A stretch of 64,000 bases of DNA, from positions 4,296,501 to 4,360,500 of the forward strand of contig NZ_CP133269.1 of NCBI RefSeq assembly GCF_030915525.1, in the 5' to 3' direction. The notes under the pieces were generated by a model. The model worked only from the letters and a program-made list of their open reading frames with translations, had not been told where the DNA came from and ran no database searches. A program made the position numbers and the translations under genes. This DNA comes from Neobacillus sp. PS2-9. GTDB taxonomy: Bacteria; Bacillota; Bacilli; Bacillales; Cytobacillaceae. Below, piece by piece: positions 18,690-50,195 of the stretch; positions within the stretch are counted from its first letter, which is position 1, and each line of letters starts with the position of its first letter.

Positions 18690-19497
18690 CGAGAACGACC
18701 CTACGTTACCGGTTTTCCTTTTCCATACTCTCTTGGGGCTGGTAGAACACTTCTACGTTATCGGTTCGCCCTTTCCATACCTCTTTGGGGCTCGTACCTC
18801 TTCTACGCGACCGGTTTTCCTTTTCTACGAGGCTTAATTGCCTGGTGGAAATGAATTAGGTCGCTTAAACGAGGTCTATGCGACCGTACTGCTTGATGGA
18901 GAAGGGGTTTGGTCGCTTAGACGGGGTCTATGCGACCGTATTGCCTTCTAGAGAAGGATTTTGGTCGCTTAGACGGGGTCTATGTGACCGTATTGCCTTC
19001 TAGAGAAGGATTTTGGTCGCTTAGACGGGGTCTATGCGACCGTATTGCCTTCTAGAGAAGGATTTTGGTCGCTTAGACGGGGTCTATGCGACCATATTGC
19101 CTTCTGGAGAATGATTTTGGTCGCTTAGACGGGGTCTATGCGACCTTACTGCCTTCTGGAGAATGATTTTGGTCGCTTAAACGAGGTCTATGCGACCGTA
19201 CTGCTTGATGGAGAAGGGGTTTGGTCGCTTAGACGGGGTCTATGCGACCGTATTGCCTTCTAGAGAAGGATTTTGGTCGCTTAGACGGGGTCTATGCGAC
19301 CGTATTGCCTTCTGGAGAATGATTTTGGTCGCTTAGACGGGGTCTATGCGACCTAATTGCCTTCTGGAGATGGATTTTGGTCGCTTAGACGGGGTCTATG
19401 CGACCGTATTGCCTTCTGGAGATGGATTTTGGTCGCTTAGACGAGGTCTATGCGACCGTATTGCCTTCTCCATACCCACTTGGGGCTCGTAAAGACC
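18690..19497. repeat. 52-bp-period palindromic tandem array B
   Basis: Twelve units start at 18859 and every 52 bp to 19431. Each has a 27-bp interrupted palindrome (GGTCGCTTAGAC, 3-nt loop, GTCTATGCGACC) plus a 25-bp spacer, itself often palindromic (CCTTCTAGAGAAGG). Units 1-2 and 7-8 are identical over 104 bp, so a 312-bp block was duplicated. Three diverged units at about 18701, 18753 and 18803 and the last spacer (CCATACCCACTTGGGG) resemble array D instead. The array fills the gap between two convergent genes. Confidence 0.97.
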
Positions 19498-19504
19498 TAT
19501 TATG

Positions 19505-19882
19505 TTAATATTTTATTTTCTTCTGCACTTTTTGCTCATAATTTTTAAAAATGGCTGAATTTGTCTTTACTCCTCGTTTGGACATTAGTTGGTTAAACCG
19601 AAGGAGTTTTTCATTCAATTTCTTTTGGAGGCTTTCCTTCTCAGTGGAGTCATCACATTTCTTCAATAATCCCTCGATTGTCATCATTTCTTGCCGCAGC
19701 TGACCTTCCTCCTGAGTATATCCTGCATTTTTCAGCAATTTATAAGCCATACGGAGCTCCTCAGGAATTCCCGATAAATCTTCTAACTGCAATGGTTTAC
19801 CCAATCCTGGTAGATTGTCGAATTCACCATCTTGATAAGCTTTTTTGATGCGATCTTCTGAGACAATGTGAAACAGATCCAT
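19505..19882 (-). CDS. DUF1992 (DnaJ-homologue C28-type) protein
   Basis: 125 residues. The opening DLFHIVSEDRIKKAYQDGEFDNLPGLGKPL is the conserved signature of the DUF1992 domain, found in bacterial YhdN-like proteins and in eukaryotic DNAJC28. The rest is helical and charged with possible coiled coil (residues 45-110). Cytoplasmic, function unknown. ATG at 19882 with AAGGAGG upstream. It ends right at the edge of repeat array B. Confidence 0.85.
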   Translation of the reverse strand: MDLFHIVSEDRIKKAYQDGEFDNLPGLGKPLQLEDLSGIPEELRMAYKLLKNAGYTQEEGQLRQEMMTIEGLLKKCDDSTEKESLQKKLNEKLLRFNQLMSKRGVKTNSAIFKNYEQKVQKKIKY

Positions 19883-20028
19883 GCTTTAGACCTCCTTATT
19901 ATTACCATTTTCCCTATGTTAAGTATATCAAGTCACATCTGATAATTAAAATGGCAACCCCGTCCCATCCGTAATTATTTTTCGAAGTTTTGGGAATGCT
20001 ACATGCGTAGATGAAAGGAGTGTTGATT

Positions 20029-20238
20029 TTGTCACGCGGAGAACATTTTAACCATAAGAACAAGAGTCATCCTGGTAATTTTCCACAAGATAGCTTAACG
20101 GAGAAAAAAGGAAAAGAAGCAGTTGGGGATGAAGAATTCCTGGTAGTAAGAGAAGCATTTAAAAATAGAGTCGAGAATGAAGAAGAATATCGCGGCGATA
20201 CTGCCCGCTTGCTTTCAGAACAGGATCAGACAGAGTAA
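20029..20238 (+). CDS. Small hydrophilic protein of unknown function (69 aa)
   Basis: 69 residues, very hydrophilic (SRGEHFNHKNKSHPGNFPQD...), with no hydrophobic segment and an acidic C-terminal half. The TTG at 20029 is preferred because AAAGGAG lies eight bases upstream; the in-frame ATG at 20011 overlaps that site. It is followed by a strong bidirectional terminator shared with hutH. I do not recognise the family; the composition suggests a flexible or spore-associated protein. Confidence 0.65.
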   Translation: MSRGEHFNHKNKSHPGNFPQDSLTEKKGKEAVGDEEFLVVREAFKNRVENEEEYRGDTARLLSEQDQTE

Positions 20239-20265
20239 AAGGCGTGAGTTTTCACGCCTTTTTCG
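20236..20265. terminator. Bidirectional terminator between the small gene and hutH
   Basis: AAAAGGCGTGA/TCACGCCTTTTT stem with T runs on both strands. Confidence 0.9.
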
Positions 20266-20272
20266 TTGCCCA

Positions 20273-21799
20273 TTAATATTGTTCTTTTTCCACAGTAAAT
20301 TCTTTTATAAAATGAGAAATCTCAATTTCTTTTAACCATTTGGCCGCTTTTTCGATATCCTTTGAGAACACCCGGTCCTGTTTAAGGGAAGCTACTTGCT
20401 CGCGTCCCTTTTCAAAGAACCTTTTCGTTTGAGTCGCCATTTTTTCAACACCGCGAATCTCAACCGCCTGCATGGCACAAATTAATTCAATTGCTAAAAC
20501 TCTTCTAACGTTTTGAATGATTTGATACGCATGCCTAGAGGCAATCGTTCCCATACTCACATGGTCCTCTTGGTTTGCTGAGGATGGAATCGAATCCACA
20601 CTCGCTGGATGTGCTAGTGTTTTATTTTCTGATACTAGTGCCGCCGCTGCATACTGCATAATCATGGCGCCAGATTGTAAACCTGGCTGAGGGCTTAGGA
20701 ATGCTGGCAAATCATTTAATTGTGGATTCACTAACCGTTCAATTCTTCGCTCTGAAATATTGGCCAATTCCGCAACCGCAATTTTCATAAAATCCATCGC
20801 GAACGCAATAGGCTGCCCATGGAAGTTTCCTCCCGAAATGACCTTTTCCCCATCATCAAAAATTAACGGGTTATCGGTTGCAGCATTCATTTCTATTTCT
20901 AATTTTTCTTTTACATAATCCAAGACCTGCCATGAAGCACCATGGACTTGTGGAATACAGCGTAAGGAATAGGCATCCTGTACCCTTAATTCACCTTGCT
21001 GCGTTGTTAATAAACTATCACTTAAATAACCACGAATCCTTCGCGCTGTATCAATTTGCTGTTTATAGCCCCTTGCTACATGAACTTCTTCCGCAAAGGC
21101 ATCAATAATGCCATTTAATCCTTCTATAGTCATAGAGGCGATCAGTTCGCTTTCAAACGCCAGCTGCTCTGCTTCTAGATAACCAACCACACCCATGGCT
21201 GTCATTGCTTGTGTCCCATTAATAAGTGCCAGACCTTCCTTCGCCTCTAATGTGACTGGAAGGATTCCCTCTTGTTGAAGCGCACTTATTGCTTCCATCT
21301 GATTTCCTTTATAAAAAACTTCCCCTTCCCCAATTAAAACTAAAGCAAGGTGGGACAGCGGCGCTAAGTCACCACTTGCACCTAAAGAGCCCTGCTGTGG
21401 AATAACAGGAATAATCTCCAGATTAACCAGCTCTAAGAGTTTTTCAATAATAATCGGTCTAACTCCAGAAAAGCCTTTAAGGAGTGCATTGGCACGAAGA
21501 AGGACCATTGCTTTTGAAACAATTTCAGGAAATGGTTCTCCCACACCACATGCATGTGAGCGAATTAAATTTAGTTGAAGGTCCTGAACATGATTTTTAT
21601 CAATTAACACATCGCTGAACTTTCCAAACCCAGTCGTAATCCCATATACTACTCTCGATTCTGAAACAATTCGATCGACAGCTTCTCTGCTCTTTTTAAC
21701 TGCTTCCATACTCTTCTCTGAAGCTCGAACCTTTTGACCTCGGTATAATACTTCCTTCATTTGTTCTAGCGTTAAACTTTCACCTGTTAATGTAATCAT
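20273..21799 (-). CDS. hutH: Histidine ammonia-lyase
   Basis: Deaminates L-histidine to urocanate, the first step of histidine breakdown. 508 residues. The Ala-Ser-Gly triad that cyclises to the MIO prosthetic group is seen in [14 protein letters not shown] (residues about 141-143). Other family motifs: [11 protein letters not shown] with the catalytic Tyr, and [10 protein letters not shown]. The ATG at 21799 follows GAGGAG. No hutU, hutI, hutG or hutM lies nearby, unlike the B. subtilis hutPHUIGM operon. The leader contains a promoter and a terminator-like hairpin. Confidence 0.95.
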
Positions 21800-21831
21800 T
21801 TTTCTCGCTCCTCTACCACTTTAGTATAATA

Positions 21832-21886
21832 AAGAAAGAGGCTGGACTCCTTATCACTTTAGATTTGGAGTTCAGCCTCTTTTATA
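21832..21886 (-). terminator. Attenuator-like hairpin in the hutH leader
   Basis: On the minus strand AGAGGCTGAACTCC pairs with GGAGTCCAGCCTCT, followed by TTCTTT, between the hutH promoter and its start. In B. subtilis the hut leader terminator is overcome by HutP with histidine. I do not see a clear set of HutP UAG triplets here, so the control protein is open. Confidence 0.7.
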
Positions 21887-21967
21887 ATTGTTATTAAATA
21901 TGGAATTGTTTTTTGATAATGGCTCATGAAAATCATTCCATTCAATTTTATTATTATGATTATAACT

Positions 21968-21997
21968 ATTGTATGAGAGGAAAACTTAATCTGTCAA
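21968..21997 (-). promoter_or_regulatory. Sigma-A promoter of hutH
   Basis: TTGACA (21997-21992), 18-bp spacer, TACAAT (21973-21968) on the minus strand; predicted leader about 160 nt. Confidence 0.65.
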
Positions 21998-22076
21998 CTA
22001 AATTTTCTGAATTTTAGCACGATAACACTTTAGCAGAATAATGAACGAAATGGCTTTATGGTTCCTTATAAATACG

Positions 22077-22108
22077 AAAAGCGCTATTCCTTTTTACAGA
22101 ATAGCGCC
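22077..22108 (-). terminator. Terminator of topB
   Basis: GCGCTATTC/GAATAGCGC stem followed by TTTTC on the minus strand. Confidence 0.85.
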
Positions 22109-22123
22109 TTAATAAATATCGTA

Positions 22124-24313
22124 TTAATCAAACTTTAATCCTTTTAGTGCCTCTGCCAACGCATTATTTATTGGTTCTTCTTCTTTCTGCTGGTTTTTCA
22201 AATAATTTTGTACCGTACGTTTATCTACTTTACCACCAGATTCTTTTTTACGGCGTGCTTCGAAAGCAGATAGCTTTTCACGGTATCCACATTTACATGC
22301 GAAGATTTGGCCAGCACCTTCGCCACGTAGCTCTAGCTTTTTATGGCATTGTGGGCAACGTGCATTGGTGACGCGTGCGACATTTTTACGATGTCCACAT
22401 TCACGATCCTGGCACACGAGCATTTTACCTTTTTTACCATTCACTTCAAGCATTGGTTTCCCACAGTCTGGACAAGATTTGGTGGAAATATTATCGTGCT
22501 TATATTTCTTATCAGTTGCTTTAATTTCAGCAACGATTTCTTTTGTGTAGTTTTTCATTTCACTGATAAACACTTCTTTTTTCAACTTGCCATGCGCAAT
22601 TTGGTCAAGCTTTTGTTCCCATTCTGCTGTTAAGGTAGGCGATTTTAGCTCTTCTGGAACCAAATCCAGCAATTGACGACCTTTAGAAGTAATATGAATG
22701 TCATTACCACGCTTTTCAATTAAAAATGAATTGAATAGCTTATCAATAATATCAGCACGTGTCGCAACAGTACCTAGTCCACCCGTCGATTTTAAGGTGT
22801 CTGCAAGTTGTTTATTTTGTGTATCCATATACTTCGTAGGATTTTCCATTGCCGATAGTAATGTCGCCTCAGTAAATCTTGCCGGCGGCTTAGTTTGACC
22901 AGATGTTTGTGCGATTAATTTTACGTTTAATGTATCACCTTTTTCGATCCGAGGTAATATTTGCTCTTTCAGATCATCTGTATTATCGTCGTCTTCAAGT
23001 CGATTATTGTAAACTTCTTTCCAGCCAAGAGATAAAATAGTTTTTCCTCTAGCAACGAAGTTTTCATCACCAATTTTCGCACGAAGAGTTAATTGCTCGT
23101 ACTCAAATGCTGGGAATAATACCGCTAAAAAGCGTTTAACCACTAAGTCATAAATTTTGCGTTCTTTATCCGTAAATGCTGAAAAATTAACGTATCCTTC
23201 GGTTGGAATAATTGCATGGTGATCGGATACCTTGCTATCATCTACAAACGACTTTGAAGGCTTTATTGGATTTTTTAAGATTTTGGTTGTTAGTGAACGA
23301 TATTCTCCTATTCCACATGCTTTCAGACGTTCTGGAATCGTTGGAACGATATCTGACGAAATAAAGCGTGAATCTGTACGGGGATACGTTAAAACTTTAT
23401 GCTGCTCGTACAACTTTTGCATAATATTTAGTGTCTCTTTAGCTGAGTAACCGAATATTTTATTGGCATCCCGCTGTAGTTCTGTTAGGTCATAAAGGCC
23501 AGGAGAGAATAACTTCTTCGGCTTTTTTTCAATTTCGGTTACTTTGGCATTTTGGTTGCCCAGTTTTTTCACAATCGTATCAATGCTTTCCTTATTAAAA
23601 CTACGGCTATTCCCTTTTGCATCTTGCCAAGTCAGCTTTAATTGGGCTGTAGTTTGGGCTTCAATGCCGTAATAGGTTTGCGCTTTGAAGTTTTTAATTT
23701 CTTCCTCACGTGCTGCAATGATAGCAACAGTTGGGGTTTGTACACGACCACAGTTTAGTTGGGCATTGAACCTGGTGGTTAATGCACGTGTTGCATTTAG
23801 ACCGATATACCAGTCTGCTTCTGAACGTGCTACCGCTGAAGCATATAAATTGTCATAGGCTTTTCCAGGCTTTAGGTTGGCAAAGCCGTCTTTAATCGCT
23901 TTATCCGTAACAGATGAGATCCAGAGGCGTTTAATTGGTTTATTGACTTTTACTTTATCAATAATCCAACGTGCAACTAATTCTCCCTCTCTGCCTGCGT
24001 CTGTAGCTACAATTATTCCATTAACATCACTTCTAGTCAGTTGACTTTTAACTGCTTGAAACTGTTTTCCAGTTTGCTTAATGACTGTCAATTTCAAACG
24101 CTCAGGTAGCATAGGCAAATCTTCCAATTTCCATGATTTATACTTCACATCGTAATTTTCTGGATCAGCAAGTGTGACTAGATGCCCAAGCGCCCATGTA
24201 ACGATATATTTATCTCCTTCAAGAAACCCATTTCCTTTTTTATGACAATTAAGCACACGTGCAATATCACGTGCGACAGAAGGTTTTTCAGCAATTACAA
24301 CACTTTTAACCAA
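22124..24313 (-). CDS. topB: DNA topoisomerase III
   Basis: Type IA topoisomerase that decatenates and relaxes DNA through a tyrosyl-DNA bond. 729 residues: N-terminal Toprim domain (VVIAEKPSVARD at 5-16; DAGREGELVARW near 104), topoisomerase IA core with active-site Tyr in LTYPRTDSRF (about 312), and two C-terminal zinc ribbons (CPDCGKPM...CQDREC and CPQCHKKL...CKC, about 610-680), then a basic tail. Start is TTG at 24313 with AAAGGATG upstream. The 5' side faces the 14-unit repeat array C. Confidence 0.96.
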   Translation of the reverse strand: MVKSVVIAEKPSVARDIARVLNCHKKGNGFLEGDKYIVTWALGHLVTLADPENYDVKYKSWKLEDLPMLPERLKLTVIKQTGKQFQAVKSQLTRSDVNGIIVATDAGREGELVARWIIDKVKVNKPIKRLWISSVTDKAIKDGFANLKPGKAYDNLYASAVARSEADWYIGLNATRALTTRFNAQLNCGRVQTPTVAIIAAREEEIKNFKAQTYYGIEAQTTAQLKLTWQDAKGNSRSFNKESIDTIVKKLGNQNAKVTEIEKKPKKLFSPGLYDLTELQRDANKIFGYSAKETLNIMQKLYEQHKVLTYPRTDSRFISSDIVPTIPERLKACGIGEYRSLTTKILKNPIKPSKSFVDDSKVSDHHAIIPTEGYVNFSAFTDKERKIYDLVVKRFLAVLFPAFEYEQLTLRAKIGDENFVARGKTILSLGWKEVYNNRLEDDDNTDDLKEQILPRIEKGDTLNVKLIAQTSGQTKPPARFTEATLLSAMENPTKYMDTQNKQLADTLKSTGGLGTVATRADIIDKLFNSFLIEKRGNDIHITSKGRQLLDLVPEELKSPTLTAEWEQKLDQIAHGKLKKEVFISEMKNYTKEIVAEIKATDKKYKHDNISTKSCPDCGKPMLEVNGKKGKMLVCQDRECGHRKNVARVTNARCPQCHKKLELRGEGAGQIFACKCGYREKLSAFEARRKKESGGKVDKRTVQNYLKNQQKEEEPINNALAEALKGLKFD

Positions 24314-24410: not shown

Positions 24411-25140
24411 TCTCACAGTTCCCACTCTAACTCTTTTTAAGGGATACTGGCACTGTCCACTCCTCACAGTTCCCATGCAAGCATTTTTGGTGGGGTCTCG
24501 GGAGTTGTGAACTCTTCACAATTCCCATGCAAGCCTTATTAGTGGGGCCTCGGGGATTGTGAACTCTTCACAATTCCCATGGAAGCCTTATTAGTGGGGT
24601 CTCGGGAGTTGTGAACCCTTCACAGTTCCCATGCAAGCATTTTGGTGAGGTCTCGGGAGTTGTGAACTCTTCACAATTCCCATGCAAGCCTTATTAGTGG
24701 GGCCTCGGGGATTGTGAACTCTTCACAATTCCCATGCAGGCATTTTTGGTGGGGTCTCGGGAGTTGTGAACCCTTCACAGTTCCCATGCAAGCATTTTTA
24801 GTGGGGTCTCGGGCATTGTGAACTCTTCACAATTCCCATGCAAGCATTTTTAGTGGAGCATCGGGCACTGTGCGCTCCTCACAATTCCCATGCAAGCATT
24901 TTTAGTGGGGTCTCGGGCATTGTGAACTCTTCACAATTCCCATGCAAGCATCTTTAGTGGAGCCTCGGGCACTGTGCGCTCCTCACAATTCCCATGCAAC
25001 CCTTTTTAGTGGAGCATAGGGAGTTGTGAACTCTTCACAATTCCCAAGCAAGCATTTTAAGTGGAGCATCGGGCACTGTGCGCTCCTCACAATTCCCATC
25101 AAGCCTTTTTGGTGGAGCTATGGGAATTGTGTGCGTAGTT
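24411..25140. repeat. 52-bp-period palindromic tandem array C
   Basis: Fourteen units; the anchor CACA(A/G)TTCCC starts at 24414, 24465, 24517, 24569, 24621, 24672, 24724, 24776, 24828, 24880, 24932, 24984, 25036, 25088 (12 steps of 51-52, mostly exactly 52). Each unit has a palindrome (GGGAGTTGTGAA, 3-nt loop, TTCACAATTCCC) and a 25-bp spacer ATGCAAGCATTTTTAGTGGG plus five bases. The array lies between two divergently transcribed genes (topB and an MFS gene), so it is upstream of both. Confidence 0.97.
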
Positions 25141-25306: not shown

Positions 25307-26578
25307 ATGAGAATTAGAGATTGGGACCCAAACTTAAAGGTTCGCTTATATAGTGAAGCCATGATGAATATTACCTTTTGGATGTTTTTCCCGTTCTTAA
25401 CCATCTATTTTGCAGACGAGTTCGGTAAAAATAAAGCAGGATTATTATTAGTTTTTTCTCAGGTTTTCTCTGTCGCTGCAAACCTGATGGGCGGATATTG
25501 CGCAGATCGCTTCGGACGAAAAAGAATGATGGTTCTTTCCGCCATTGGTCAAGGGCTTTCCTTCTTAGCTTTTGCTGTAGCCAGCTCTCCCTGGCTCCAT
25601 TCCCCTTGGATTGGATTTATTTCGTTCGCGGTTGCAGGGGTTTTTGGTTCCTTTTACTGGCCTGCTAGTCAGGCGATGATTGCAGATGTCGTGGAAGAAA
25701 AACATAGAAGTAGTGTATTTGCCATTTTTTATACATCTATTAATATTGCAGTTGTGGTCGGGCCTATATTAGGATCCATTTTTTATGTTCACTACCGCTT
25801 TCAGCTGTTACTTGTAGCTGGATTTGTTTGTATTTTATTTGGATTGATTCTTGCCAAAATGATCAGAGAAACGGCACCACTCCAACAGAATACTGCTCTT
25901 TCTAGCGATGGAAAGTGGTATTACTTTTTACTCAATCAACTGAGGGATTATTCCCTCATCATTAAGGATAAGACCTTCCTTTTATTTATCCTCGCAGGAG
26001 TTTTGGCTGGGCAGACGTTTATGCAGCTGGATCTGCTAATCCCTGTTTATATAAAGGATTTCGTGAAAAATCAAACACTCTTTTCTGTCGGTGATTGGTC
26101 GTTTACGATTAAGGCTGAACAGGTATTTGGAATCGTCCTCGCTGAAAATGGCTTGCTCGTTGCCTTATTAACGGTGTTTGTGACAAAGTGGATGAATCAA
26201 TATTATGAAAGAAATGTATTTGTTCTCTCCTCTATTGTGTACGCCATCTCCATTGTTATTTTCAGTCAAACACATTGGATATGGGGATTAATCTTGGCAA
26301 TGGCGGTATTCACGTTTGCTGAATTAATGGGGGCAGGACTGCAGCAGAGCTTCGTTTCAAAGCTAGCACCTGAGCATATGAGGGGTCAGTATTTTGCGGC
26401 AGCCAGCTTGCGGTTTACAATCAGCCGGACTATTGCTCCGCTTGCTATTCCATTGACCGTGTGGATTGGCTATGACTGGACCTTTTTCGTCCTTTGCATT
26501 CTTGCCCTCGCAAGTGCTGTACTGTATTGGATTATGTTTGTTCATTTTGAAAAAAAAGCTACCATTACGGGATCGTAA
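25307..26578 (+). CDS. MFS transporter
   Basis: 423 residues with twelve predicted helices. The loop between helices 2 and 3, GGYCADRFGRKRMM, is the major facilitator signature. Similar to MdtH/YttB-like drug exporters, but the substrate cannot be read from sequence. Residues about 245-265 form an amphipathic insert between helices 7 and 8. ATG at 25307 follows GGGG. Monocistronic, with its own terminator; the upstream region is repeat array C. Confidence 0.85.
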   Translation: MRIRDWDPNLKVRLYSEAMMNITFWMFFPFLTIYFADEFGKNKAGLLLVFSQVFSVAANLMGGYCADRFGRKRMMVLSAIGQGLSFLAFAVASSPWLHSPWIGFISFAVAGVFGSFYWPASQAMIADVVEEKHRSSVFAIFYTSINIAVVVGPILGSIFYVHYRFQLLLVAGFVCILFGLILAKMIRETAPLQQNTALSSDGKWYYFLLNQLRDYSLIIKDKTFLLFILAGVLAGQTFMQLDLLIPVYIKDFVKNQTLFSVGDWSFTIKAEQVFGIVLAENGLLVALLTVFVTKWMNQYYERNVFVLSSIVYAISIVIFSQTHWIWGLILAMAVFTFAELMGAGLQQSFVSKLAPEHMRGQYFAAASLRFTISRTIAPLAIPLTVWIGYDWTFFVLCILALASAVLYWIMFVHFEKKATITGS

Positions 26579-28186: not shown

Positions 28187-28222
28187 GAGAGAGGATGACC
28201 ATAATGGTCATCCTCCTTTTTA
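28187..28222 (+). terminator. Terminator of the aminopeptidase gene
   Basis: GAGGATGACCA/TGGTCATCCTC stem followed by CTTTTTATT. Confidence 0.9.
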
Positions 28223-29434
28223 TTGAGAATACACAACTGCTCCGTCCTTTTCTTTAGCTATTTTTTCACGCATTTTCTTAAGTTGCTGAACCGGGTCCTC
28301 ATTTAATACCTTTCCTAATAAATCTAGTAGTCCTAGTGAGCTTAGTAGACTCTTTTCCCAGCTTTGAAGTTCTTTTGTTAGTGTCGTGTCATTCTGACAG
28401 ATTGAATTCAAAGGTACCTTTTTCGAAATGGCTTCATCAATCAGATTCAATGCCAATTCCTTTGTGATGACTCCATTGGCATTCTTTAACTGCTCGCACG
28501 TCGTTTGAACGACTTGATCAACCTTTTCTTTTGTACCTGTTACGATTGGCTCCACTGGTTTTAAGACTGGTTCAAGCGGTTTCATAACAGGATCTAATGG
28601 TTTTAACACAGGTTCTAGTGGTTTTAGGACTGGCTCTAGTGGTTTCAACACAGGCTCTAGTGGTTTCAACACAGGTTCTAGCGGTTTCAACACAGGTTCT
28701 AGTGGCTCTAATACCGGCTCCAGTGGCTCCAACACCGGCTCCAGTGGCTTTGTCACTACGCCAACCATATCCGGAAGTGGGTCGGTCACAACTCCGATGC
28801 TACCAGGAGACTCATCTCCCTTTCCACCATCCTCACACGTTAGCGGCAAATGTCCATTTGATATTTTTTCAATTTCTTTATCTATCTGATTGATAGGTAA
28901 CCTACTTAAATCTTGTAAAAGTTTACTCTGATCAGGATGAGGAGCCCCCCGCTTACCAGCCAATGTGTCGAGGACTAATTGGTTAATTATGCTGTTTTTA
29001 GATTCCATATAATGTGCATTCATAACCACATTTTCCATCCCCAGCTCCGGAATCGTCTCTGATGCTTTGACACAAGCACCCTTAAAGGAAATGGCCGATG
29101 TATCCACTGTCATATCTTTTACAGTAACGGGACCTTTTGCTTTTAAGGATATCGTAACTGGGCCATTGGAAGATTCTAATTGCTTGGTTAATCTCATTCC
29201 ATAGATGACTGCAGATTTATAGTGGAATCGCAGCATGGGCTTCTGATCACTTTCAGATGTTTCCCGCTTCACAATGGACGCCGTCATACCTGACCCAACA
29301 ACACGGTCCGCTTCAATAACAAAGCCTTCATTTGCTGTACTTTCGGCCTTTACAGCAGAGCTGAAAGGGAAGAATGATAAAAACAATAGCTGGATACAAA
29401 TGTTTATAACGAAGTACTTGCTTTTCCACCACAT
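28220..29434 (-). CDS. Secreted protein with PLEPVLK tandem repeats
   Basis: 404 residues. Signal peptide (about 1-30), an N-terminal domain (about 35-215), then a low-complexity block of near-perfect 7-residue repeats PLEPVLK/PLEPVLE (about 230-310, matching 21-bp DNA repeats), and a C-terminal helical region with two Cys. The repeat block is proline-rich and acidic, likely an extended stalk or wall-spanning linker. Start ATG at 29434 with AAAGGGGAG. Third gene of an operon with the DUF6114 and DUF6230 genes (14 bp gap). I do not recognise the N-terminal domain, but it shares phrases with the DUF6230 protein (VKITASKPVQITGL against ISLKAKGPVTVKDM), so they may be related folds. Confidence 0.75.
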   Translation of the reverse strand: MWWKSKYFVINICIQLLFLSFFPFSSAVKAESTANEGFVIEADRVVGSGMTASIVKRETSESDQKPMLRFHYKSAVIYGMRLTKQLESSNGPVTISLKAKGPVTVKDMTVDTSAISFKGACVKASETIPELGMENVVMNAHYMESKNSIINQLVLDTLAGKRGAPHPDQSKLLQDLSRLPINQIDKEIEKISNGHLPLTCEDGGKGDESPGSIGVVTDPLPDMVGVVTKPLEPVLEPLEPVLEPLEPVLKPLEPVLKPLEPVLKPLEPVLKPLEPVLKPLDPVMKPLEPVLKPVEPIVTGTKEKVDQVVQTTCEQLKNANGVITKELALNLIDEAISKKVPLNSICQNDTTLTKELQSWEKSLLSSLGLLDLLGKVLNEDPVQQLKKMREKIAKEKDGAVVYSQ

Positions 29435-29447
29435 AGTTCGCTCCCCT

Positions 29448-29834
29448 TTAGACAGTATGAACCGTCTTATCAACTCTGTTTGGAGGTGCTGCCTTCACTT
29501 GAACGGGAGCAAGGCGCCATGCCATTAATAACGCCCCTCCGATAATTCCAAAAAGGGTTCCAAACAGGAAGCCTCCCAATGCCCCAATCACCGAGAGAAT
29601 GGATAGAAAAATAGTAAAGATTCCTAGTATTTTAGATGCATTCGGAAAAAATAGGGCAACGATACCTAACAAAGTAATGACTCCGCCAAACAATAAACCG
29701 ATGATGGCTATGGAGCCAGGAAGAAATGTACTGAGGTAAAGGTTTAATGGGACCCACGAGATCATCAGACCACTAAGAATGGTAGTTACTGCTCCCCCTA
29801 GCGGCCGTTTTTTTCGCCACTTTTTAAATGCCAT
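29448..29834 (-). CDS. DUF6114 membrane protein
   Basis: 128 residues with four predicted membrane helices (about 14-34, 38-58, 62-82, 85-107). A basic N-terminus (KKWRKKRPLGGA) and a short C-terminal tail. Matches the DUF6114 family, best known as a partner of DUF6230 proteins in actinobacteria. ATG at 29834 with GGAGGG six bases upstream. Second gene of the three-gene operon. Function unknown; an assembly or export role for the two secreted partners is only an inference. Confidence 0.7.
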   Translation of the reverse strand: MAFKKWRKKRPLGGAVTTILSGLMISWVPLNLYLSTFLPGSIAIIGLLFGGVITLLGIVALFFPNASKILGIFTIFLSILSVIGALGGFLFGTLFGIIGGALLMAWRLAPVQVKAAPPNRVDKTVHTV

Positions 29835-32776: not shown

Positions 32777-32787
32777 AATTCTCCATT

Positions 32788-32827
32788 TCCATAGTTTTTT
32801 ATAGAGGGTGTCTGCTATGAACCTCTC
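32788..32827 (-). promoter_or_regulatory. PreQ1-I riboswitch aptamer
   Basis: On the minus strand AGAGGTTCATAGC, ACACCCTCT and the A-rich tail TATAAAAAACTA match the class I preQ1 aptamer: P1 stem AGAGG/CCTCT, the C-containing loop, and the A-rich strand that forms the pseudoknot. It precedes the queF terminator, giving transcriptional OFF control. Confidence 0.95.
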
Positions 32828-32975
32828 CCCAGTATTCGGGTATCCATGTAATTAATTTCATAGTAACTATAGTGAATTTTGCGTCCACTGTCAATCAGCA
32901 TTTTATGGGAAGCCTTGAGAAGGATAGGGTATAAAGGTACAATAATACTAAGTATAAGAAAGGGGGCAGTATGTC

Positions 32976-33368: not shown

Positions 33369-33416
33369 CCTCTTGTACGTATATTCTAGTAACAAATAAA
33401 TTTAGAGGTGAAAAAC

Positions 33417-34055
33417 TTGTATACTCAAACATCTACTGAGTTTATGCCATCCGTATTACGGACATTTGCTCTATCACTTGCTATCGCTTTCTTAGGCACA
33501 ATGGCTGGTGCGTTTATTGTACCGTCTTGGCTTATGATTCCATTGTATATTTTAGAATTTGTCATGCTTATATCTGCGTTCTTTTTAAGACGAAAAAAAG
33601 CCATCTCGTACTCATTCCTTTATGTCTTTACCTTTCTTTCTGGTATCACACTATACCCAATTGTCGCTCACTACTTAGCGACATCAGGAGCAAACGTAGT
33701 AGTTATGGCCTTTGCAAGTACTACCGTTGTCTTTACAGGTATTTCTATTTATGCGGCAAAATCAAAACGTAATTTCTCGTTTTTAGGTGGATTTTTGCTG
33801 GCTGCACTGCTTGCTTTAGTAGCCATCTCCATCTTTAATATTTTCTTCCCGTTAAGCTCAACAGGAATGCTTGCTTACTCCTTTATTGGTGTAGTCGTAT
33901 TTAGCGGGTATGTACTTTTTGATATCAGCCGAATGAAGCATTACGGTGTAAGAGCAGAAGAAGTTCCATTGATGGCCTTAAACCTATACCTTGATTTTAT
34001 TAACCTATTCATTAGCATTCTTCGTATCTTGGGGATTCTATCAAGTAAAGATTAA
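33417..34055 (+). CDS. Bax inhibitor-1/YccA family membrane protein
   Basis: 212 residues with seven predicted membrane helices. The family C-terminal Asp pair is visible (FDISRMKHYG and NLYLDFINLFISILRILG), which in the B. subtilis homologue YetJ controls pH-sensitive Ca2+ leak. The start is TTG at 33417 with AGAGGTG upstream; GTG at 33408 is part of that site. The next gene region is repeat array D. Confidence 0.85.
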   Translation: MYTQTSTEFMPSVLRTFALSLAIAFLGTMAGAFIVPSWLMIPLYILEFVMLISAFFLRRKKAISYSFLYVFTFLSGITLYPIVAHYLATSGANVVVMAFASTTVVFTGISIYAAKSKRNFSFLGGFLLAALLALVAISIFNIFFPLSSTGMLAYSFIGVVVFSGYVLFDISRMKHYGVRAEEVPLMALNLYLDFINLFISILRILGILSSKD

Positions 34056-34107: not shown

Positions 34108-34700
34108 TAGTTTATTAGGTAGACTGGTTTTATGTTACCCGGTTCTCTTTTCTGGATCCATTTCGGGCACGTAGATCGATTCTATGTTACCCAGTTCCCT
34201 TTTTCAATCACATCTCGGGCACGTAGACTGCTTCTACGTTACCCAGTTCCCTTTTTCAATCACATCTCGGGCACGTAGACTGCTTCTACGTTACCCAGTT
34301 CCCTTTTTCAATCACATCTCGGGCACGTAGACTGCTTCTACGTTACCCAGTTCTCTTTTCCATACCCATTTCGGGCACGTAGACTGCTTCTACGTTACCC
34401 AGTTCCTTTTTCAATCACATCTCGGGCACGTAGACCGATTCTATGTTACCCAGTTCCCTTTTCCATACCCAATTCGGGCACGTAGACTGCTTCTACGTTA
34501 CCCAGTTCTCTTTTCCATACCCATTTCGGGCACGTAGACTGCTTCTACGTTACCCAGTTCCCTTTTTCAATCACATCTCGGGCACGTAGACCGATTCTAT
34601 GTTACCCAGTTCCCTTTTCCATACCCAATTCGGGCACGTAGACTGCTTCTACGTTACCCAGTTCCCTTTTATCAATCACATCTCGGGCACGTAGACCAAC
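34108..34700. repeat. 52-bp-period palindromic tandem array D
   Basis: Eleven units; TA(C/T)GTTACCC starts at 34131, 34183, 34235, 34287, 34339, 34391, 34442, 34494, 34546, 34598, 34650 (all steps 52 except one 51). Palindrome GGGCACGTAGA / TCTACGTTACCC around a 5-nt loop, plus a 24-bp spacer of two types: one with TTCAATCACATCTC and one with CCATACCCATTTC. Fills the gap between convergent genes. Confidence 0.97.
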
Positions 34701-34742
34701 TAATCCCTACAAAAAAACACGATTTTCTTTATTTAAACCATG

Positions 34743-36488
34743 TTATTTTTCAAAGGAATTAATTAAAGTTAATCCCCGATTAATCATTTGTTTAACTGAT
34801 GAGTCCCAGTCAGTATTTTGCAGCTTATTCATGATAGCGTTTACATTTTGATGACCATCATCGTGCATTTTATAAAGTTCGAGAATCTCTAAGCGCAGTA
34901 ACCACTCTTTTGGATACCGGTCATCTAAGATGGCTAAAACTTCTCCTACATGGGCCGCACTTTGTTCATCCCAAACCAAACCTTCACGTATGTGGCGAAT
35001 CTCTTCATATAAATTTTCCAGCTCATTCCATTCTGGTTTATCAACAACTTCCTCTGTATCTTCTATCTCTGTCCATTCAAAATAAGCATCAGGATCTGCA
35101 GCACCAGCAAAGACCGAATCAATGCTTGCACCCACGGCCATATCGAATGTCCCCCATGCTGGTTCAAATAGTACCTGATCCTTATAAGCTACTTGGCAAT
35201 CTTTAAAGGAGATAATAACAGGTTTGGAGTCTGAAAAAAGAATTCCTTTCACCGTTCCCTCAACCAACACTCCACTCTCAAATTTTAATTGGACCTTATG
35301 ATCCTGAAAAATACCTAAGTCCTTTAGCTGCGCAACCGTACATTGCTCTAAGACAATATCTCCTTCTAAACGACCAATAGGTGTACCAAAGCCTTTACGA
35401 TGTGTTTCTTTTCCATGTCCATCCAATTGTTGATTGTTGTAGGCCAATGCTGTTGGACCCTTCGTCTTGAGATAAACGGCTTCCTTTTTTTCATTTATTA
35501 AAACATCAGCTAGAGTTCCTGTAACTTGCAGGCCTGAGGAAAAGCAAATCGTTGCCGTGTTTTCTGTCTGCAGTGCTTGAACGAGACTCTCCGTTCCTCC
35601 TTTCCGGAAGGCCATTGTCGAAGCAAAGTCATCAATAGCCGCGACTAAGTCCTCAAAGCTTTTACAAACAAATAACTGTGGCTGCGGTTTCGTAACATCA
35701 TAAGGGGTACTTATGCAGGCTTCAACGGAAAATGGAATTTTACGGATATCATCCTTCAAACAGCTTTGGCTCTCTCCCACCGAAGATAGCAAGCCAGCCC
35801 CGTATATGATTGGGTGATCGAGCTCACCAATTAATCCGTATTCCACCGTCCACCAAAACAGTCGTGATACCTTATCAGCTTCTGATAAACCTTTCAACTT
35901 GCTGCGCGCTTCAGCAACCTGCATCTCGGCCTCTTTTACTTGCTCTGGAGTCGAATTGGGGTCTTCTGCCACAATCGTTAAATGACGAACAGCCATAAAT
36001 ACCTGTGCTTTTTCTTTACTCGAAAGAGCCTTTGCACCCATTTCCCCGATTTTCCTTACAAATTCGCGGTAGGCTTCATCTAAAAGGATAGGCGCATGCC
36101 CTGCCGCTTCATGAAGCATATCCGGTGCCGGCGTATAAGCAATATTTTGTACGTTCCGAATCTCTGTTGCAATCGGTAAGAGGCGGTTAGCTAAAAAGCC
36201 ATAAAAAGCAGAGCCTGGAATAAGTCCATCGATGGTCACCGCCCCCCAGCCAACCTTCGAAAGACTCGTATTCATATCTTCGACTTTTGGAATGGATTCC
36301 GTCTTGATCCCTGAATCTCTTAATCCATTCACATAAGCAGGATGGGCAATTTCCTTTAGGAAATAATGATTTTGCTTCATAACAAAACGCCAAACTGCAT
36401 GCTCAATTGGCGTATAACGGTGGTAATGTTGCTTTGAAATATATGGCAGTAAATTGGCAGGAATATTTTTTATTCTTTTTCCAGTCAT
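34743..36488 (-). CDS. phhA: Aromatic amino acid (phenylalanine) hydroxylase, long form
   Basis: Iron- and pterin-dependent monooxygenase that converts phenylalanine to tyrosine. 581 residues. The catalytic domain occupies about residues 20-310, with iron ligands His and His in HEAAGHAP (about 127-132) and Glu in FWWTVEYGLIGE (about 219). The roughly 270-residue C-terminal extension (glycine-poor, beta-rich) is absent from the 262-residue proteobacterial PhhA and is typical of the Bacillus long form; its role is unknown. No pterin dehydratase (phhB) is close. An ECF sigma gene ends 42 bp upstream on the same strand and may be cotranscribed. Confidence 0.9.
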   Translation of the reverse strand: MTGKRIKNIPANLLPYISKQHYHRYTPIEHAVWRFVMKQNHYFLKEIAHPAYVNGLRDSGIKTESIPKVEDMNTSLSKVGWGAVTIDGLIPGSAFYGFLANRLLPIATEIRNVQNIAYTPAPDMLHEAAGHAPILLDEAYREFVRKIGEMGAKALSSKEKAQVFMAVRHLTIVAEDPNSTPEQVKEAEMQVAEARSKLKGLSEADKVSRLFWWTVEYGLIGELDHPIIYGAGLLSSVGESQSCLKDDIRKIPFSVEACISTPYDVTKPQPQLFVCKSFEDLVAAIDDFASTMAFRKGGTESLVQALQTENTATICFSSGLQVTGTLADVLINEKKEAVYLKTKGPTALAYNNQQLDGHGKETHRKGFGTPIGRLEGDIVLEQCTVAQLKDLGIFQDHKVQLKFESGVLVEGTVKGILFSDSKPVIISFKDCQVAYKDQVLFEPAWGTFDMAVGASIDSVFAGAADPDAYFEWTEIEDTEEVVDKPEWNELENLYEEIRHIREGLVWDEQSAAHVGEVLAILDDRYPKEWLLRLEILELYKMHDDGHQNVNAIMNKLQNTDWDSSVKQMINRGLTLINSFEK

Positions 36489-46042: not shown

Positions 46043-46063
46043 AAATCACCAATGTCCTAATGT

Positions 46064-46411: not shown

Positions 46412-46512
46412 TTTGTTTCACTCCTTTTCTTTTCTTGATTTCATCTTACCTTTTTTCTTTTGTTCTCATAATTGCGCCTGAGCTTGATTTTTATATCGGT
46501 CTCAAGACGTAG

Positions 46513-46562
46513 AAAGGGTCAGCCCCTTAAGCAAAATGCTTAAAAAACTGACCCTTTTTTCG
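46513..46562 (-). terminator. Terminator of the CAP/LysM gene
   Basis: Outer stem AAAGGGTCAG/CTGACCCTTT with an inner TTAAGCA/TGCTTAA hairpin; T-rich on the plus strand and TTTC on the minus strand. Confidence 0.75.
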
Positions 46563-46574
46563 ATATTTTGAAAC

Positions 46575-47186
46575 TTATTTTGAGATAAACATTTGCACCC
46601 AATAGTAGCCGTAGGAGCCGCCTTTAGCATAGCCCACGCCGATACGGGTGTTTGAGCTCAGGATGTTGGCACGGTGTCCTGAACTGTTCATCCAAGACTG
46701 TACCACTGATGCAGGTGTCGTTTGACCGGCAGCAATATTTTCAGCAGCCGAACGATAGGAAATACCAAAGTTCTTCATCATATCAAATGGGCTTCCATAG
46801 GTTGGGCTCGTATGGCTGAAATAGTTTTTATCTCGCATATCATTTGCCTTATAGCGAGCAACCCTTGATAGCTCCCAATCTGCTGTCATTGCCGGCTTTC
46901 CATTTTTGGCACGCTCTTGATTGGTTAATTGAATGACTTGATTTTCTATACTCTTAATCGCATCAAAGTTAGGGATGGTCACCTTCTGACCAGGATAGAT
47001 CAGGTTAGGATTTTTAAACTGAGGGTTAGCCGCAATTAACTCTGAGATTCCAACCTGATACCTAACAGCGATTTTCCAAAGCGAGTCTCCTGGCTGAACA
47101 GTGTAATATTGCTGTGCAAATGAAACGCTAGGAATACAGAAAAGAGATAGTAAGAACAACAAACTAATCCAAAAAGATTTTTTCAT
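46575..47186 (-). CDS. Secreted LysM-CAP domain protein (YkwD-like)
   Basis: 203 residues: signal peptide (1-24), one LysM domain (about 27-71: YTVQPGDSLWKIAVRYQVGI to PGQKVTIP) that binds peptidoglycan, and a CAP/SCP domain (about 80-203) with NQERAKNGKPAM, the His/Glu motifs NYFSHTSPTYGSPFDM and AAENIAAGQ, and HRANILS. Typical for Bacillus YkwD/SafA-associated or spore-coat-localised proteins, function unclear. ATG at 47186 with GGAGG. Confidence 0.9.
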   Translation of the reverse strand: MKKSFWISLLFLLSLFCIPSVSFAQQYYTVQPGDSLWKIAVRYQVGISELIAANPQFKNPNLIYPGQKVTIPNFDAIKSIENQVIQLTNQERAKNGKPAMTADWELSRVARYKANDMRDKNYFSHTSPTYGSPFDMMKNFGISYRSAAENIAAGQTTPASVVQSWMNSSGHRANILSSNTRIGVGYAKGGSYGYYWVQMFISK

Positions 47187-47294
47187 TTTTTCGCCTCCTC
47201 CGAATATATATTTTTGATTTCAGGCTCAAAATATACAAGGAACTGAAAAAATATCTTTTTGCCTGTTACAAATTGATTTTTGGAGGATGGAGAT

Positions 47295-47669
47295 TTGAGG
47301 GAAATTTCATGGATGACCTATATTATGTTAATTTTAGCGAGCTACCGCTTAACACATTTAATTGTCTTTGATAAGATTACCGAATTTATTCGCAGACCTT
47401 TTGTCAAAAAGGTGAAGGTAGAAACGCAGGATGGTACGGAAACAAAGGAAGTTCCCACTTCTATGTTTGGTTATCTATTGAAATGTTATTGGTGTGCGGG
47501 CGTTTGGAGTGCCATTTTACTTGCCGGAGCCTATTTGCTTTTTCCAAGAGTGGCCTTTGTGATTATTTTAATCTTTTCTATTGCCGGCGGTCAGTCTATT
47601 ATTGAAACTTTCGTCGGTGTTAATATTAAAAAGGTTGATTACTATTCACACTTAAAGGACAAGGACTAA
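47295..47669 (+). CDS. DUF1360 membrane protein
   Basis: 124 residues with three predicted membrane helices. Recognised from SYRLTHLIVFDKITEFIRRPF and LKCYWCAGVWSAIL (a conserved CxxC). In B. subtilis the relatives YjcA/YngL include a sporulation-related protein, but a function is not established. TTG at 47295 is eight bases from GGAGG and is preferred over the TTG at 47280. Confidence 0.8.
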   Translation: MREISWMTYIMLILASYRLTHLIVFDKITEFIRRPFVKKVKVETQDGTETKEVPTSMFGYLLKCYWCAGVWSAILLAGAYLLFPRVAFVIILIFSIAGGQSIIETFVGVNIKKVDYYSHLKDKD

Positions 47670-47783
47670 ATAAAAGCTTTGAAACATTGGTAAAATTAAT
47701 CCCCCCTTAGCATATATTTTAGAAAAGTGGCTGACTTATAATTTTTGCATGTAATTCAGCCTCAATATAAAGGGGGATTTTTA

Positions 47784-47930
47784 ATGGCTATTTGGTGGAT
47801 CACAACCATCGGTTTAGTCCTTTGTCTTGGTTTTGTAGGTGGTACACTCTTTCATTTCCTACGAGGAGCGCTCGATTCAGAGGATTCTTCCCGAATCGAT
47901 AAAATTAACTCCGATAAGGAGCCCCTTTAA
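47784..47930 (+). CDS. Small single-pass membrane protein (48 aa)
   Basis: 48 residues: hydrophobic helix (residues 3-25, AIWWITTIGLVLCLGFVGG) then an acidic/basic tail (LDSEDSSRIDKINSDKEPL). ATG at 47784 follows AGGGGGA. A terminator follows after about 50 bp. Layout is the same as in the 46-residue protein at 18480, but the sequences are different. Family not recognised. Confidence 0.65.
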   Translation: MAIWWITTIGLVLCLGFVGGTLFHFLRGALDSEDSSRIDKINSDKEPL

Positions 47931-47977
47931 TTTTAAGTAATTCTGTTTAAATAATTGGAATCATACCTTTCTTTCGA

Positions 47978-48007
47978 ACTCTGAGTAACTCAGAGTTCTT
48001 TTTACGT
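47978..48007 (+). terminator. Terminator of the small membrane-protein gene
   Basis: AACTCTGAG/CTCAGAGTT stem, then CTTTTT. Confidence 0.9.
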
Positions 48008-48096
48008 TCTAGAAAAATAAATTTTGCGTTTACCACATGATTTTTTTAGTTTAGGAAAAATTATACATGTGATTATTACGAGCTGGAGGAATACAT

Positions 48097-49626
48097 ATGA
48101 GTTCATCTGAAAATACAACAAAGTTTCCGAAAACCTTTTGGCGCGAAATAGATTTTCCCTCTTATCCTAAATTAACTGAAGACTTCTCTGTAGATGTAGC
48201 GATTGTCGGTGCCGGAATTACCGGTGTTACCGCAGCCTATTTATTATCCAAAGAAGGATTAAAGGTCGCCCTTATCGAGGCAGGTAGTGTCTTAAATGGA
48301 ACAACCGGCCACACTACCGCTAAATTAACAGCACAGCATGGTCTGATTTATGATGAATTAATCAATCATTTTGGTAAAGAAAAGGCTAGACTTTATTTTG
48401 ATTCTCAGATGGATGCCATTCATTTTGTTGAAAGAATGGTGAAGGACAATGGAATTGATTGTGATTTCAGTAAAGAAGATGCCTATATGTATGCAGTGAC
48501 AGATGAGTACTCAGAAAAGCTGCAAACTGAATGGGAAGCATATAAAAGTCTTGGCATCGATGGTGCTTTGAAAGACTCTATTCCCTTTAATATTCAAACA
48601 ACAGCAGCCTTAATGATGAGTAATCAAGCCCAGTATCACCCACTCAAATTCCTTAAAGCTCTGCTAGAAGAAGCGGTAAAGGCAGGCTGCATGGTTTATG
48701 AGAACACAACGGCCGAGGATATCGAGGACGATTATTCCGAACCAAAGGTGGTAACGAAGGATGGGCAAAGAGTAAGCTGTAAGCACGTAATCGTGGCCTC
48801 CCATTTTCCTTTTTATGATAAGCCTGGGCTTTATTTTGCTAGGATGTATGCAGACCGTTCTTATGCCATTGGCCTGAAGACGGACAAAGAGTATCCAGGT
48901 GGGATGTATATCAGTGCAGACAGTCCAACCCGTTCGATTCGGTATACACCTTATAACGGGGAGAAATTACTAATCATCGGTGGTGAAAACCACAAAACGG
49001 GGCAGGGTGTCGATACATTAAAGCATTATGAAGCACTTGAAGCCTTCGCTGAAGAGGTATTTGGGATTAAGGAGTATGAATATCGGTGGTCTGCTCAGGA
49101 TTTAGTGACGCTTGATAAACTGCCATATATCGGGGAAATCACATCTGGACGTGAACATATATTAGTAGCTACTGGTTATAAAAAGTGGGGTATGACGACG
49201 GGAATTCTTGCCGGTCATTTATTAACTAATTATGTCATGCAACGAGGCAATCCTTACCAAGAGCTGTACTCCCCTTCCCGCTTTCAGGCGGATCCAGATT
49301 TATCGAATGCCCTCACAACCAATGCTGATGTTGCCAAGCATCTCTTGAAGGGTAAGCTTGAAATTGTTGAGAAAGTTACGGATGATCTTCAAGATGGTGA
49401 AGGCGCAGTTGTTATGTATAAAGGAAAAAGAGCAGGTGCCTATAAGGATAAGAACGGTAAGCTTTATATTGTGGATACCACTTGTACTCATTTAGGGTGT
49501 GAATGTGAATGGAATCATGCTGAAAAATCATGGGATTGCCCATGCCATGGTTCACGTTTCTCGTATGCAGGCGATGTAATTGAAGGCCCAGCACGAAAAC
49601 CACTGGATCTGCTTGAGAAAGGATGA
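48097..49626 (+). CDS. FAD-dependent oxidoreductase with C-terminal Rieske domain
   Basis: 509 residues. FAD-binding Rossmann motif VAIVGAGITGVTAAYLLSKE (about 29-48), DAO (glycine-oxidase-like) domain to about residue 385, and a C-terminal Rieske [2Fe-2S] domain with CTHLGC and CPCHGSRF (about 465-490). The same fusion is B. subtilis YhfW. Substrate unknown. ATG at 48097 with GGAGG. It is monocistronic, and repeat array E starts right after the stop. Confidence 0.9.
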   Translation: MSSSENTTKFPKTFWREIDFPSYPKLTEDFSVDVAIVGAGITGVTAAYLLSKEGLKVALIEAGSVLNGTTGHTTAKLTAQHGLIYDELINHFGKEKARLYFDSQMDAIHFVERMVKDNGIDCDFSKEDAYMYAVTDEYSEKLQTEWEAYKSLGIDGALKDSIPFNIQTTAALMMSNQAQYHPLKFLKALLEEAVKAGCMVYENTTAEDIEDDYSEPKVVTKDGQRVSCKHVIVASHFPFYDKPGLYFARMYADRSYAIGLKTDKEYPGGMYISADSPTRSIRYTPYNGEKLLIIGGENHKTGQGVDTLKHYEALEAFAEEVFGIKEYEYRWSAQDLVTLDKLPYIGEITSGREHILVATGYKKWGMTTGILAGHLLTNYVMQRGNPYQELYSPSRFQADPDLSNALTTNADVAKHLLKGKLEIVEKVTDDLQDGEGAVVMYKGKRAGAYKDKNGKLYIVDTTCTHLGCECEWNHAEKSWDCPCHGSRFSYAGDVIEGPARKPLDLLEKG

Positions 49627-49639
49627 TTTGTTGGCTCCA

Positions 49640-50195
49640 TAAAGTGGAGTATGTTGCTATTTGTTTGGATGAAGGACATTATCATTGTGCTCGCGCTTGG
49701 TTTTGTCCTTCATGAGCTTGATGAAGGACATTTTCCATGTGTTTGTGCTTGATTTTGTCCTTCATGAGCTTGATGAAGGACATTTTACATGTGTCCGAGC
49801 CTGGTTTTGTCCTTCATCCCCTTGATGAAGGACATTTTTCATGTATTTAGGCTTGATTTTGTCCTTCATCCCCTTGATGAAAGACATTTTTCATGTGTCC
49901 GAGCCTGGTTTTGTCCTTCATCCCCTTGATGAAGGACATTTTTCATGTGTCCGCGCTTTGTTTTGTCCTTCATCCCCTTGATGAAAGACATTTTCCATGT
50001 GCCACCGCTTCGTTTTGTTCTTCATCCCCTTGATGAAGAACATTTTTCATATGCTCGTGCTTAGTTTTGTCCTTCATTCCCTTGATGAAGGACATTTTCC
50101 ATGTGCCACCGCTTCGTTTTGTCCTTCATCCCCTTGATGAAAGACAATTTTCATGTGTCCGTGCCTGGTTTTGTCCTTCATATCCATGGCTCCTC
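49640..50195. repeat. 52-bp-period palindromic tandem array E
   Basis: Ten units; GAAGGACA-type right arms start at 49671, 49723, 49775, 49827, 49879, 49931, 49983, 50035, 50087, 50139, all exactly 52 bp apart. Each unit is a perfect 11-bp stem (TGTCCTTCATC/GATGAAGGACA) with a 5-nt loop and a 25-bp spacer. One unit (50016-50042) has changes on both arms that keep the pair. It lies between convergent genes. Confidence 0.98.

Follow-up and report, generated by a model that had tools for sequence, protein, structure and literature searches.

Tandem 52-bp arrays of dyad and spacer in Neobacillus sp. PS2-9: dyads common to several families and A+T content in phase with the DNA helix

Tandem repeats with a constant period and a variable sequence have already been described for Bacillus, in classes of 52 nt and of 20-21 nt (Subirana and Messeguer, 2021, PMC8161180). 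The 52-nt class has periods of 51-53 nt, is non-coding, comprises many families per genome and shows high turnover, and short signal sequences and their reverse are often found within one repeat (PMC8161180). Its sequences are reported as species-specific and without sequence conservation, which is the authors' description of these repeats and not a criterion of the class; the function of constant-period bacterial satellites is given as an open question. The text of that paper makes no mention of palindrom-, hairpin, convergent or intergenic, and describes no helical A+T phase, no replication polarity and no dyads common to several families. Intergenic clusters of palindromes are also formed by the BIME-2/REP elements of Escherichia coli, for which a role in DNA topology has been proposed (PMC6379681). 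Four arrays with a period of 52 bp, named B, C, D and E, lie in a stretch of 64,000 nt (hereafter the window) from Neobacillus sp. PS2-9 (assembly GCF_030915525.1, contig NZ_CP133269.1, positions 4,296,501 to 4,360,500), whose genome is a single contig of 5.19 Mb. They are compared here with arrays elsewhere in the same genome and in other genomes of the order.

The arrays were detected with Tandem Repeats Finder (Table 1). A first-pass annotation of the window had claimed that all four repeat at 52 bp with a few steps of 51, each unit being a palindrome plus a spacer, and both statements hold. The unit consists of a dyad of about 27 bp (arms of 10-11 bp, centre of 5-7 bp) and a spacer of about 25 bp, a split that represents a display register centred on the best palindrome of each array consensus; the 10-11-bp arms are seen directly in individual units. 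Dyad centres follow each other at 52 bp save for one step of 51 in C, one of 51 and one of 53 in D, the latter leading to a decayed end unit, and, where the left edge of B has diverged, steps of 50 and 73. BIME-2 and REP units differ from these in length and sequence. The annotation had also taken the four arrays to be different from one another, but they fall into three dyad classes: T1 in B and D, T2 in E and T3 in C. The T1 class reads CRTAGA-N5-TCTAYG, with ends mostly GG.../...CC; array B carries it with one or two mismatches, and the diverged left units of B are D-like. The first dyad of C is diverged, partial units flank the whole dyads of E at both ends, and a 259-bp repeat row in D represents the duplication of a multi-unit block.

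The window and 80 stretches of 20 kb at even spacing, together 1.664 Mb or 32% of the genome, served as a sample and yielded 36 merged arrays of period 50-54 bp. Among the 99 non-coding repeat rows of this sample, counted with a first, poorer gene model (65% coding; the analysis of genomic context used a model with 85%), period 52 accounts for 37 and period 20-21 for 39, and the remaining 23 scatter over 16 periods with at most four rows apiece. The many different periods that had been named beforehand as evidence against a constrained spacing are not what the sample contains, and a chance origin of the 52-bp period is excluded. The 272 unit steps of these arrays comprise 236 of 52 bp, 20 of 51, six of 50, six of 53 and four longer ones. 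In their repeat length of 51-53 nt, their non-coding position and their several sequence families per genome, the arrays correspond to the published 52-nt class. At least two T1 dyads (two mismatches or fewer) are present in 22 of the 36 arrays, and T2 dyads (up to four mismatches of 20) in three. The second tandem class, with a period of 20-21 bp (two helical turns) and varied units, is found mostly in non-coding gaps, including window positions 3603-3680 and 3749-3800.

Are the dyads confined to one species? In a scan of 299 genomes of the order, the T1 core was found at 158 sites in Neobacillus sp. PS2-9 and at 199, 154, 18, 11 and 11 sites in five other genomes, counts to be set beside a reversed-pattern control that itself reaches up to 6; the T1-bearing genomes cover four families. 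The T2 dyad, with 20 fixed bases, occurs in 23 of the 299 genomes, which span 14 families (counted from the table), with up to 97 copies per genome and a single copy in three genomes, and its reversed-pattern control gave no matches. A class-wide draw contained T2 in three of 299 genomes, one of them from another order. Both dyads can also be recognized in published units, as the B. coagulans families 1_52_139 and 8_52_18 contain T1 and T2 dyads, T2 differing at one base (Table 1 of PMC8161180). Spacers differ, but dyads cross families, which is at odds with the published statement of species-specific sequences without conservation. Nor does it agree with any implication in the first-pass annotation that sequence is unconstrained. 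The grouping of B and D in one dyad class, the sharing of dyads by several families, the conservation of arms, the helical phase of A+T, the preference for convergent gaps and the purine-rich leading strand in two genomes are new here.

Averaged over columns, variability within arrays is 0.079 for the arms, 0.169 for the centre and 0.163 for the spacer. Arms are less variable than the spacer in 30 of 31 arrays of the genome (Wilcoxon p = 1e-7; the register was picked by consensus palindromy, with a slight bias possible, and the 31 leave out two arrays with a consensus length other than 52 and three with fewer than four units). The spacing of dyads was followed over all fetched loci, where 476 of 509 adjacent T1/T2 pairs lying 40-64 bp apart step by 52 bp and 527 of 553 dyad steps of up to 420 bp deviate by at most 4 bp from a multiple of 52. 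In one genome, G267, units exactly 52 bp apart share their arms only, with unrelated centres and spacers: over 12 neighbour pairs, identity is 0.90 for the arms (preselected by motif in such counts), 0.36 for the centres and 0.47 for the spacers. Such arms-only sharing is a minority pattern, seen as 24 of 380 neighbouring spacer pairs below 0.6 identity over all loci, a tally in which one array of G094 (L180, L216) is counted twice; neighbouring spacers of the Neobacillus sp. PS2-9 genome are 0.85 identical (133 pairs).

The composition of the unit follows the helix. Among the harmonics of A+T, that of 10.4 bp is the strongest in 34 units of this genome (z = 5.0), in 38 units of other genomes (z = 9.3) and in 27 deduplicated units (z = 5.3), and the A+T minimum sits at the dyad centre (phase 178-180 degrees). 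Runs of at least four A/T gather near the middle of the spacer, 23-27 bp from the dyad centre, and occur in 18 of the 34 units of this genome against 7.7 in shuffles and in 21 of the 38 others against 8.8; arrays with a consensus length other than 52 (two of 36 here, three of 41 elsewhere) were left out of both the run and the harmonic tests. Spacers alone carry the A+T periodicity as well (55 distinct spacers, z = 9.2). The same holds for published material: over all 27 consensus units in Table 1 of PMC8161180, the mean share of the 10.4-bp harmonic is 0.114 against about 0.038 expected, and 16 of the 27 have a significant palindrome, with a mean phase of 180 degrees (R = 0.60, p = 0.003).

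Of the 36 arrays, 18 occupy convergent gaps, 16 codirectional gaps and one, array C, a divergent promoter gap, and one lies over a called ORF. The gaps of at least 100 bp (n = 713, the arrays' own gaps included) comprise 85 convergent, 439 codirectional and 189 divergent ones, so that convergent gaps are enriched (they hold 18 of 35 arrays and make up 85 of 713 gaps, Fisher p = 5e-8) and divergent gaps depleted (1 of 35 against 189 of 713, Fisher p = 5e-4). The enrichment that the annotation had proposed as a check is thus found, and its count of three convergent gaps and one divergent gap in the window is correct provided that a 51-aa ORF beside array B is counted as a gene.

The 52-bp arrays are concentrated on the left replichore, with 29 there and 6 on the right (p = 3e-4, the test having been picked after the data had been seen), and those of 20-21 bp are even over the replichores (25 against 31). 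Most of the right replichore, from about 0.82 to 2.8 Mb, holds one 52-bp array in the sampled stretches, near 1.77 Mb, and a few T1/T2 sites elsewhere, at 1.55, 2.32 and 2.69 Mb. The leading strand is purine-rich in 34 of the 36 arrays (mean 0.61, against about 0.52 in other gaps), although four of the 34, array B among them, reach only 0.50-0.52. In G141, a genome from another family, the dyad centre has a purine on the leading strand in 21 of 25 T2 clusters (p = 0.0009) and 86 of 97 sites, on the assumption of an origin at position 0 and a terminus near mid-chromosome, with which the GC skew of six loci is consistent. About 1 Mb of that genome, from 2.2 to 3.2 Mb, has no exact T2 site and likely includes the terminus region. 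A universal replication polarity was rejected, however, since polarity was seen in 23 of 37 arrays with a clear leading strand in 13 other genomes picked for T1/T2 matches (p = 0.19) and in 10 of 18 in G239. Polarity, present in this genome and in G141 and often missing elsewhere, is therefore a property of some species.

The arrays are also unevenly distributed among relatives. The topoisomerase gene to the left of array C, named topB here, served as the query to fetch relatives, the nearest named ones being mostly Neobacillus species by this gene, and the MFS gene to the right of C was found by tblastn in 28 of 80 relatives' loci. The divergent gap between the two genes measures 127-253 bp in 23 of these 28 (by tblastn ends) and 993 bp here. 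When 10 of the 23 short gaps were aligned, both flanks matched at 60-89% identity, without overlap of the flank matches in four relatives (L051, L056, L066, L101). Two more relatives hold 20-21-bp arrays in this gap (L071, L100), and on the other side of topB there are 52-bp arrays in L054 and L058 and 20-21-bp arrays in L051, L060, L062 and L101. Therefore, arrays come and go in favoured gaps, and since the gaps beside topB host either class depending on the species (L051-L130), certain gaps are favoured by both. In another locus, L188, a multi-unit block of 311 bp is duplicated. The T2 pattern had no matches in a collection of viral contigs (2.9 million by the tool's description), and array E, the array searched against plasmids and phages, had no match there.

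Several known systems with comparable architecture were considered and rejected. CRISPR loci share conserved dyads and fixed-length spacers with the arrays, and the spacers of G267 differ from unit to unit; in contrast, neighbouring spacers are conserved in most T1/T2 arrays, including those of this genome, where spacers are not unique, the centre of the repeat is variable and a third of the genome already contains 36 arrays. No Cas1 match was found in the genome, and Cas1 was present in two of seven array-rich genomes. TIGR-Tas systems have a Nop-domain protein as their criterion, of which there was no match in the genome and weak matches in one of the seven. Contigs C11, C13 and C14 of G122 contain ten weak Nop-domain (PF01798) matches, several in open frames of 411-412 aa that stand at several places and perhaps represent a repeated transposase-like gene. 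A REP/RAYT pair was rejected because the Y1 transposase gene is not flanked by the 52-bp dyad palindrome. Matches to Y1_Tnp occur in seven of seven genomes tested, all array-rich (in G239 by a broken fragment only), and the exact T2 dyad is found at only one of nine RAYT-like loci within the 10 kb fetched. One RAYT-like gene of Neobacillus sp. PS2-9 (5112-5669 in locus L222, near 617 kb) has different palindromes of its own, four copies of GGGGACAGTCCCCC...GGGGGACTGTCCCC surrounding it at 4098-6229, and apparently forms with them a REP/RAYT pair of Bacillales that has no relation to the 52-bp dyads. Intrinsic terminators were rejected as a general reading, as judged by eye and not by a terminator scan: on the + strand, TTTT or TTTTT follows the dyads of array E, and B, C and D have no such run.

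What could hold dyads and phase in place while sequences change? The arrays may be rows of phased sites at which dimeric proteins bind the DNA and shape it into a curved nucleoprotein at the ends of transcription units, a reading to which a probability of about 0.5 is assigned. Each array would be a row of sites for a putative dimeric sequence-specific protein or, in an alternative form, for a small protein family with specificities T1, T2 and T3. Sites five helical turns apart would place all dimers on one face of the DNA, and an A+T content with its minimum at the dyad centre and maxima at 0.5, 1.5 and 2.5 turns from it should allow the DNA to curve or wrap coherently, so that a loaded array would make a compact nucleoprotein segment. 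The position in convergent gaps and downstream of genes, not at promoters, suggests a role in chromosome architecture or topology at transcription-unit ends, with insulation, absorption of supercoils or anchoring as candidates. Arrays might grow, shrink and vanish fast by duplication of units and unit blocks, binding preserving the arms and the spacing. There is about an even chance that dimer recognition phased over five turns is what accounts together for the conserved arms, the freer centre, the equally freer yet phased spacer, the fixed period and the sharing between families.

Several observations weigh against this proposal. No binding protein has been found, and the binder remains putative. 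Eleven of the 36 arrays match neither T1 nor T2, and two or more dyad classes coexist in some array-rich genomes (Neobacillus sp. PS2-9, G239), which would call for several proteins. No significant helical phase was seen among the 26 irregular dyad steps (R = 0.18, p about 0.44). In the spacers, periods from 10 to 13 bp all give a z of 8.5-9.5 for A+T, a signal too broad to fix the exact pitch, and of the 16 published units whose palindrome is significant, three are in opposite phase. Avoidance of promoters would be equally expected for neutral insertions, and arrays and units of one genome are related, so that the tests are not fully independent. Arrays of B. coagulans are reported as transcribed, which a role as RNA would also fit (PMC8625621). 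The first-pass annotation, which had inferred selection on spacing and phased dimer binding, therefore stands as regards the conserved arms, the 52-bp steps of G267 and the A+T phase, but not as regards the irregular junctions or an actual protein.

A first rival would be that of functionless satellites whose units are multiplied by slippage or unequal exchange, the length of 52 bp being set by a molecular ruler of the expansion machinery or inherited from a single ancestral element. High identity within arrays, block duplications such as those in D and L188 and the short gaps that correspond to array C in 23 relatives are what such satellites would leave behind. Nevertheless they are unlikely, because arms half as variable as centre and spacer are not readily explained in this way, and an identical 20-base dyad across 14 families, arms-only units that keep their spacing in G267 and a coherent A+T phase among dissimilar units also speak against them. 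Somewhat less likely still is a role at the RNA level, with transcribed hairpin tandems acting as sponges, small RNAs or stabilizers of 3' ends. Each dyad is able to fold as a 10-11-bp hairpin, arrays are often found at the 3' ends of genes, and 52-nt families of B. coagulans are present in RNA-seq (PMC8161180; PMC8625621). Yet arm mismatches in T1 arrays show no excess of G-T over A-C (55 G-T/T-G against 86 A-C/C-A on the plus strand, a weak test as the orientation of transcripts is not known), the arm sequence itself, beyond pairing, is constant across families, and nothing obvious at the RNA level would account for A+T being in helical phase with the dyad.

It is improbable that these are stations for gyrase or another topoisomerase similar to BIME-2, where phased A+T would wrap DNA round the gyrase arms at sites of positive supercoil build-up between convergent genes. 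The enrichment in convergent gaps fits this idea. The T2 dyad is present in only 23 of 299 genomes, while gyrase is generally regarded as universal. The gyrase motif has a GC periodicity of 10.75 bp, similar to the 10.4-bp periodicity of A+T seen here, and BIME-2 elements are described as strong gyrase sites, but a section heading of the same paper calls the motif degenerate (PMC6379681), against 20 constant dyad bases in 14 families here. Gyrase wrapping is a live rival for the A+T phase and not for the exact dyad. That the arrays are products or targets of a specialised mobile element or recombinase, whether REP/RAYT-like or acting on dif-like sites, and are maintained by this enzyme is highly improbable: the layout of arm, centre and arm (10-11 + 5-7 + 10-11 bp) resembles the geometry of tyrosine-recombinase core sites and Y1_Tnp accompanies arrays in all seven array-rich genomes tested, but the different palindrome at the RAYT-like gene, the scarcity of T2 at RAYT-like loci and the lack of viral, plasmid and phage matches described above argue against it.

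Returning to the phased nucleoprotein, a wider version can be put forward tentatively, and with less confidence than the local one: a Bacillales-wide and so far unrecognized system in which a dimeric protein family, with a few specificities for 20-bp dyads of which any one species employs a subset, would form satellite chromatin on five-turn-phased arrays at the ends of transcription units, arrays moving and being rebuilt fast while dyad and phase are kept and replication polarity is fixed in some species. If phased nucleoprotein is indeed formed, the arrays would represent a bacterial satellite-based chromosome element at gene ends, with a logic comparable to that of eukaryotic satellites. 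Exact dyads in unrelated-looking arrays, together with helix-phased composition, make the question of satellite function testable, and the T2 dyad can serve directly as bait for the putative protein that binds it.

Table 1. Arrays of the window and the genes that flank them (window coordinates; TRF, Tandem Repeats Finder).
Feature	Position	Strand	TRF span	TRF period, copies, matches	Description
Array B	18684..19509	.	18837-19469	52, 12.2, 91%	T1-class dyads GGTCGCTTAGA-CGGGG-TCTATGCGACC; 12 regular units, centres 18872-19444
Array B, extra units	18697-18799; 19496				3 diverged at left; 1 diverged at right
Array C	24448..25131	.	24459-25131	52, 13.0, 84%	Dyad GGGNATTGTGA-N5-TCACAATTCCC (class T3); 13 dyads, centres 24461-25084
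Array D	34113..34711	.	34119-34696	52, 11.1, 87%	T1-class dyads GGGCACGTAGA-N5-TCTACGTTACC; 11 dyads, centres 34126-34645, and decayed end unit
Array E	49652..50185	.	49668-50181	52, 9.9, 84%	T2 dyads TGTCCTTCAT-N7-ATGAAGGACA; 9 whole dyads, centres 49717-50133
Small ORF, 51 aa	18465..18620	+			From codon-usage gene caller; renders the gap of array B convergent
DnaJ-C28 conserved-domain protein	19505..19882	-			Right flank of array B
DNA topoisomerase (topB)	22124..24313	-			Toprim + Topoisom_bac; left flank of array C
MFS transporter	25307..26578	+			Right flank of array C
Bax1-I family membrane protein	33408..34055	+			Left flank of array D
Biopterin-dependent aromatic amino acid hydroxylase family protein	34743..36488	-			Right flank of array D
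FAD oxidoreductase with Rieske domain	48097..49626	+			Left flank of array E
Amidase	50482..52029	-			Right flank of array E

Other features of the window include a 21/63-bp tandem repeat at 28556-28751, which lies within an ORF at 28220-29473 (- strand) and is probably a coding repeat. Two riboswitches reach the gathering score, a c-di-GMP-I riboswitch at 15984-16075 and a PreQ1 riboswitch at 32785-32831, both on the - strand.

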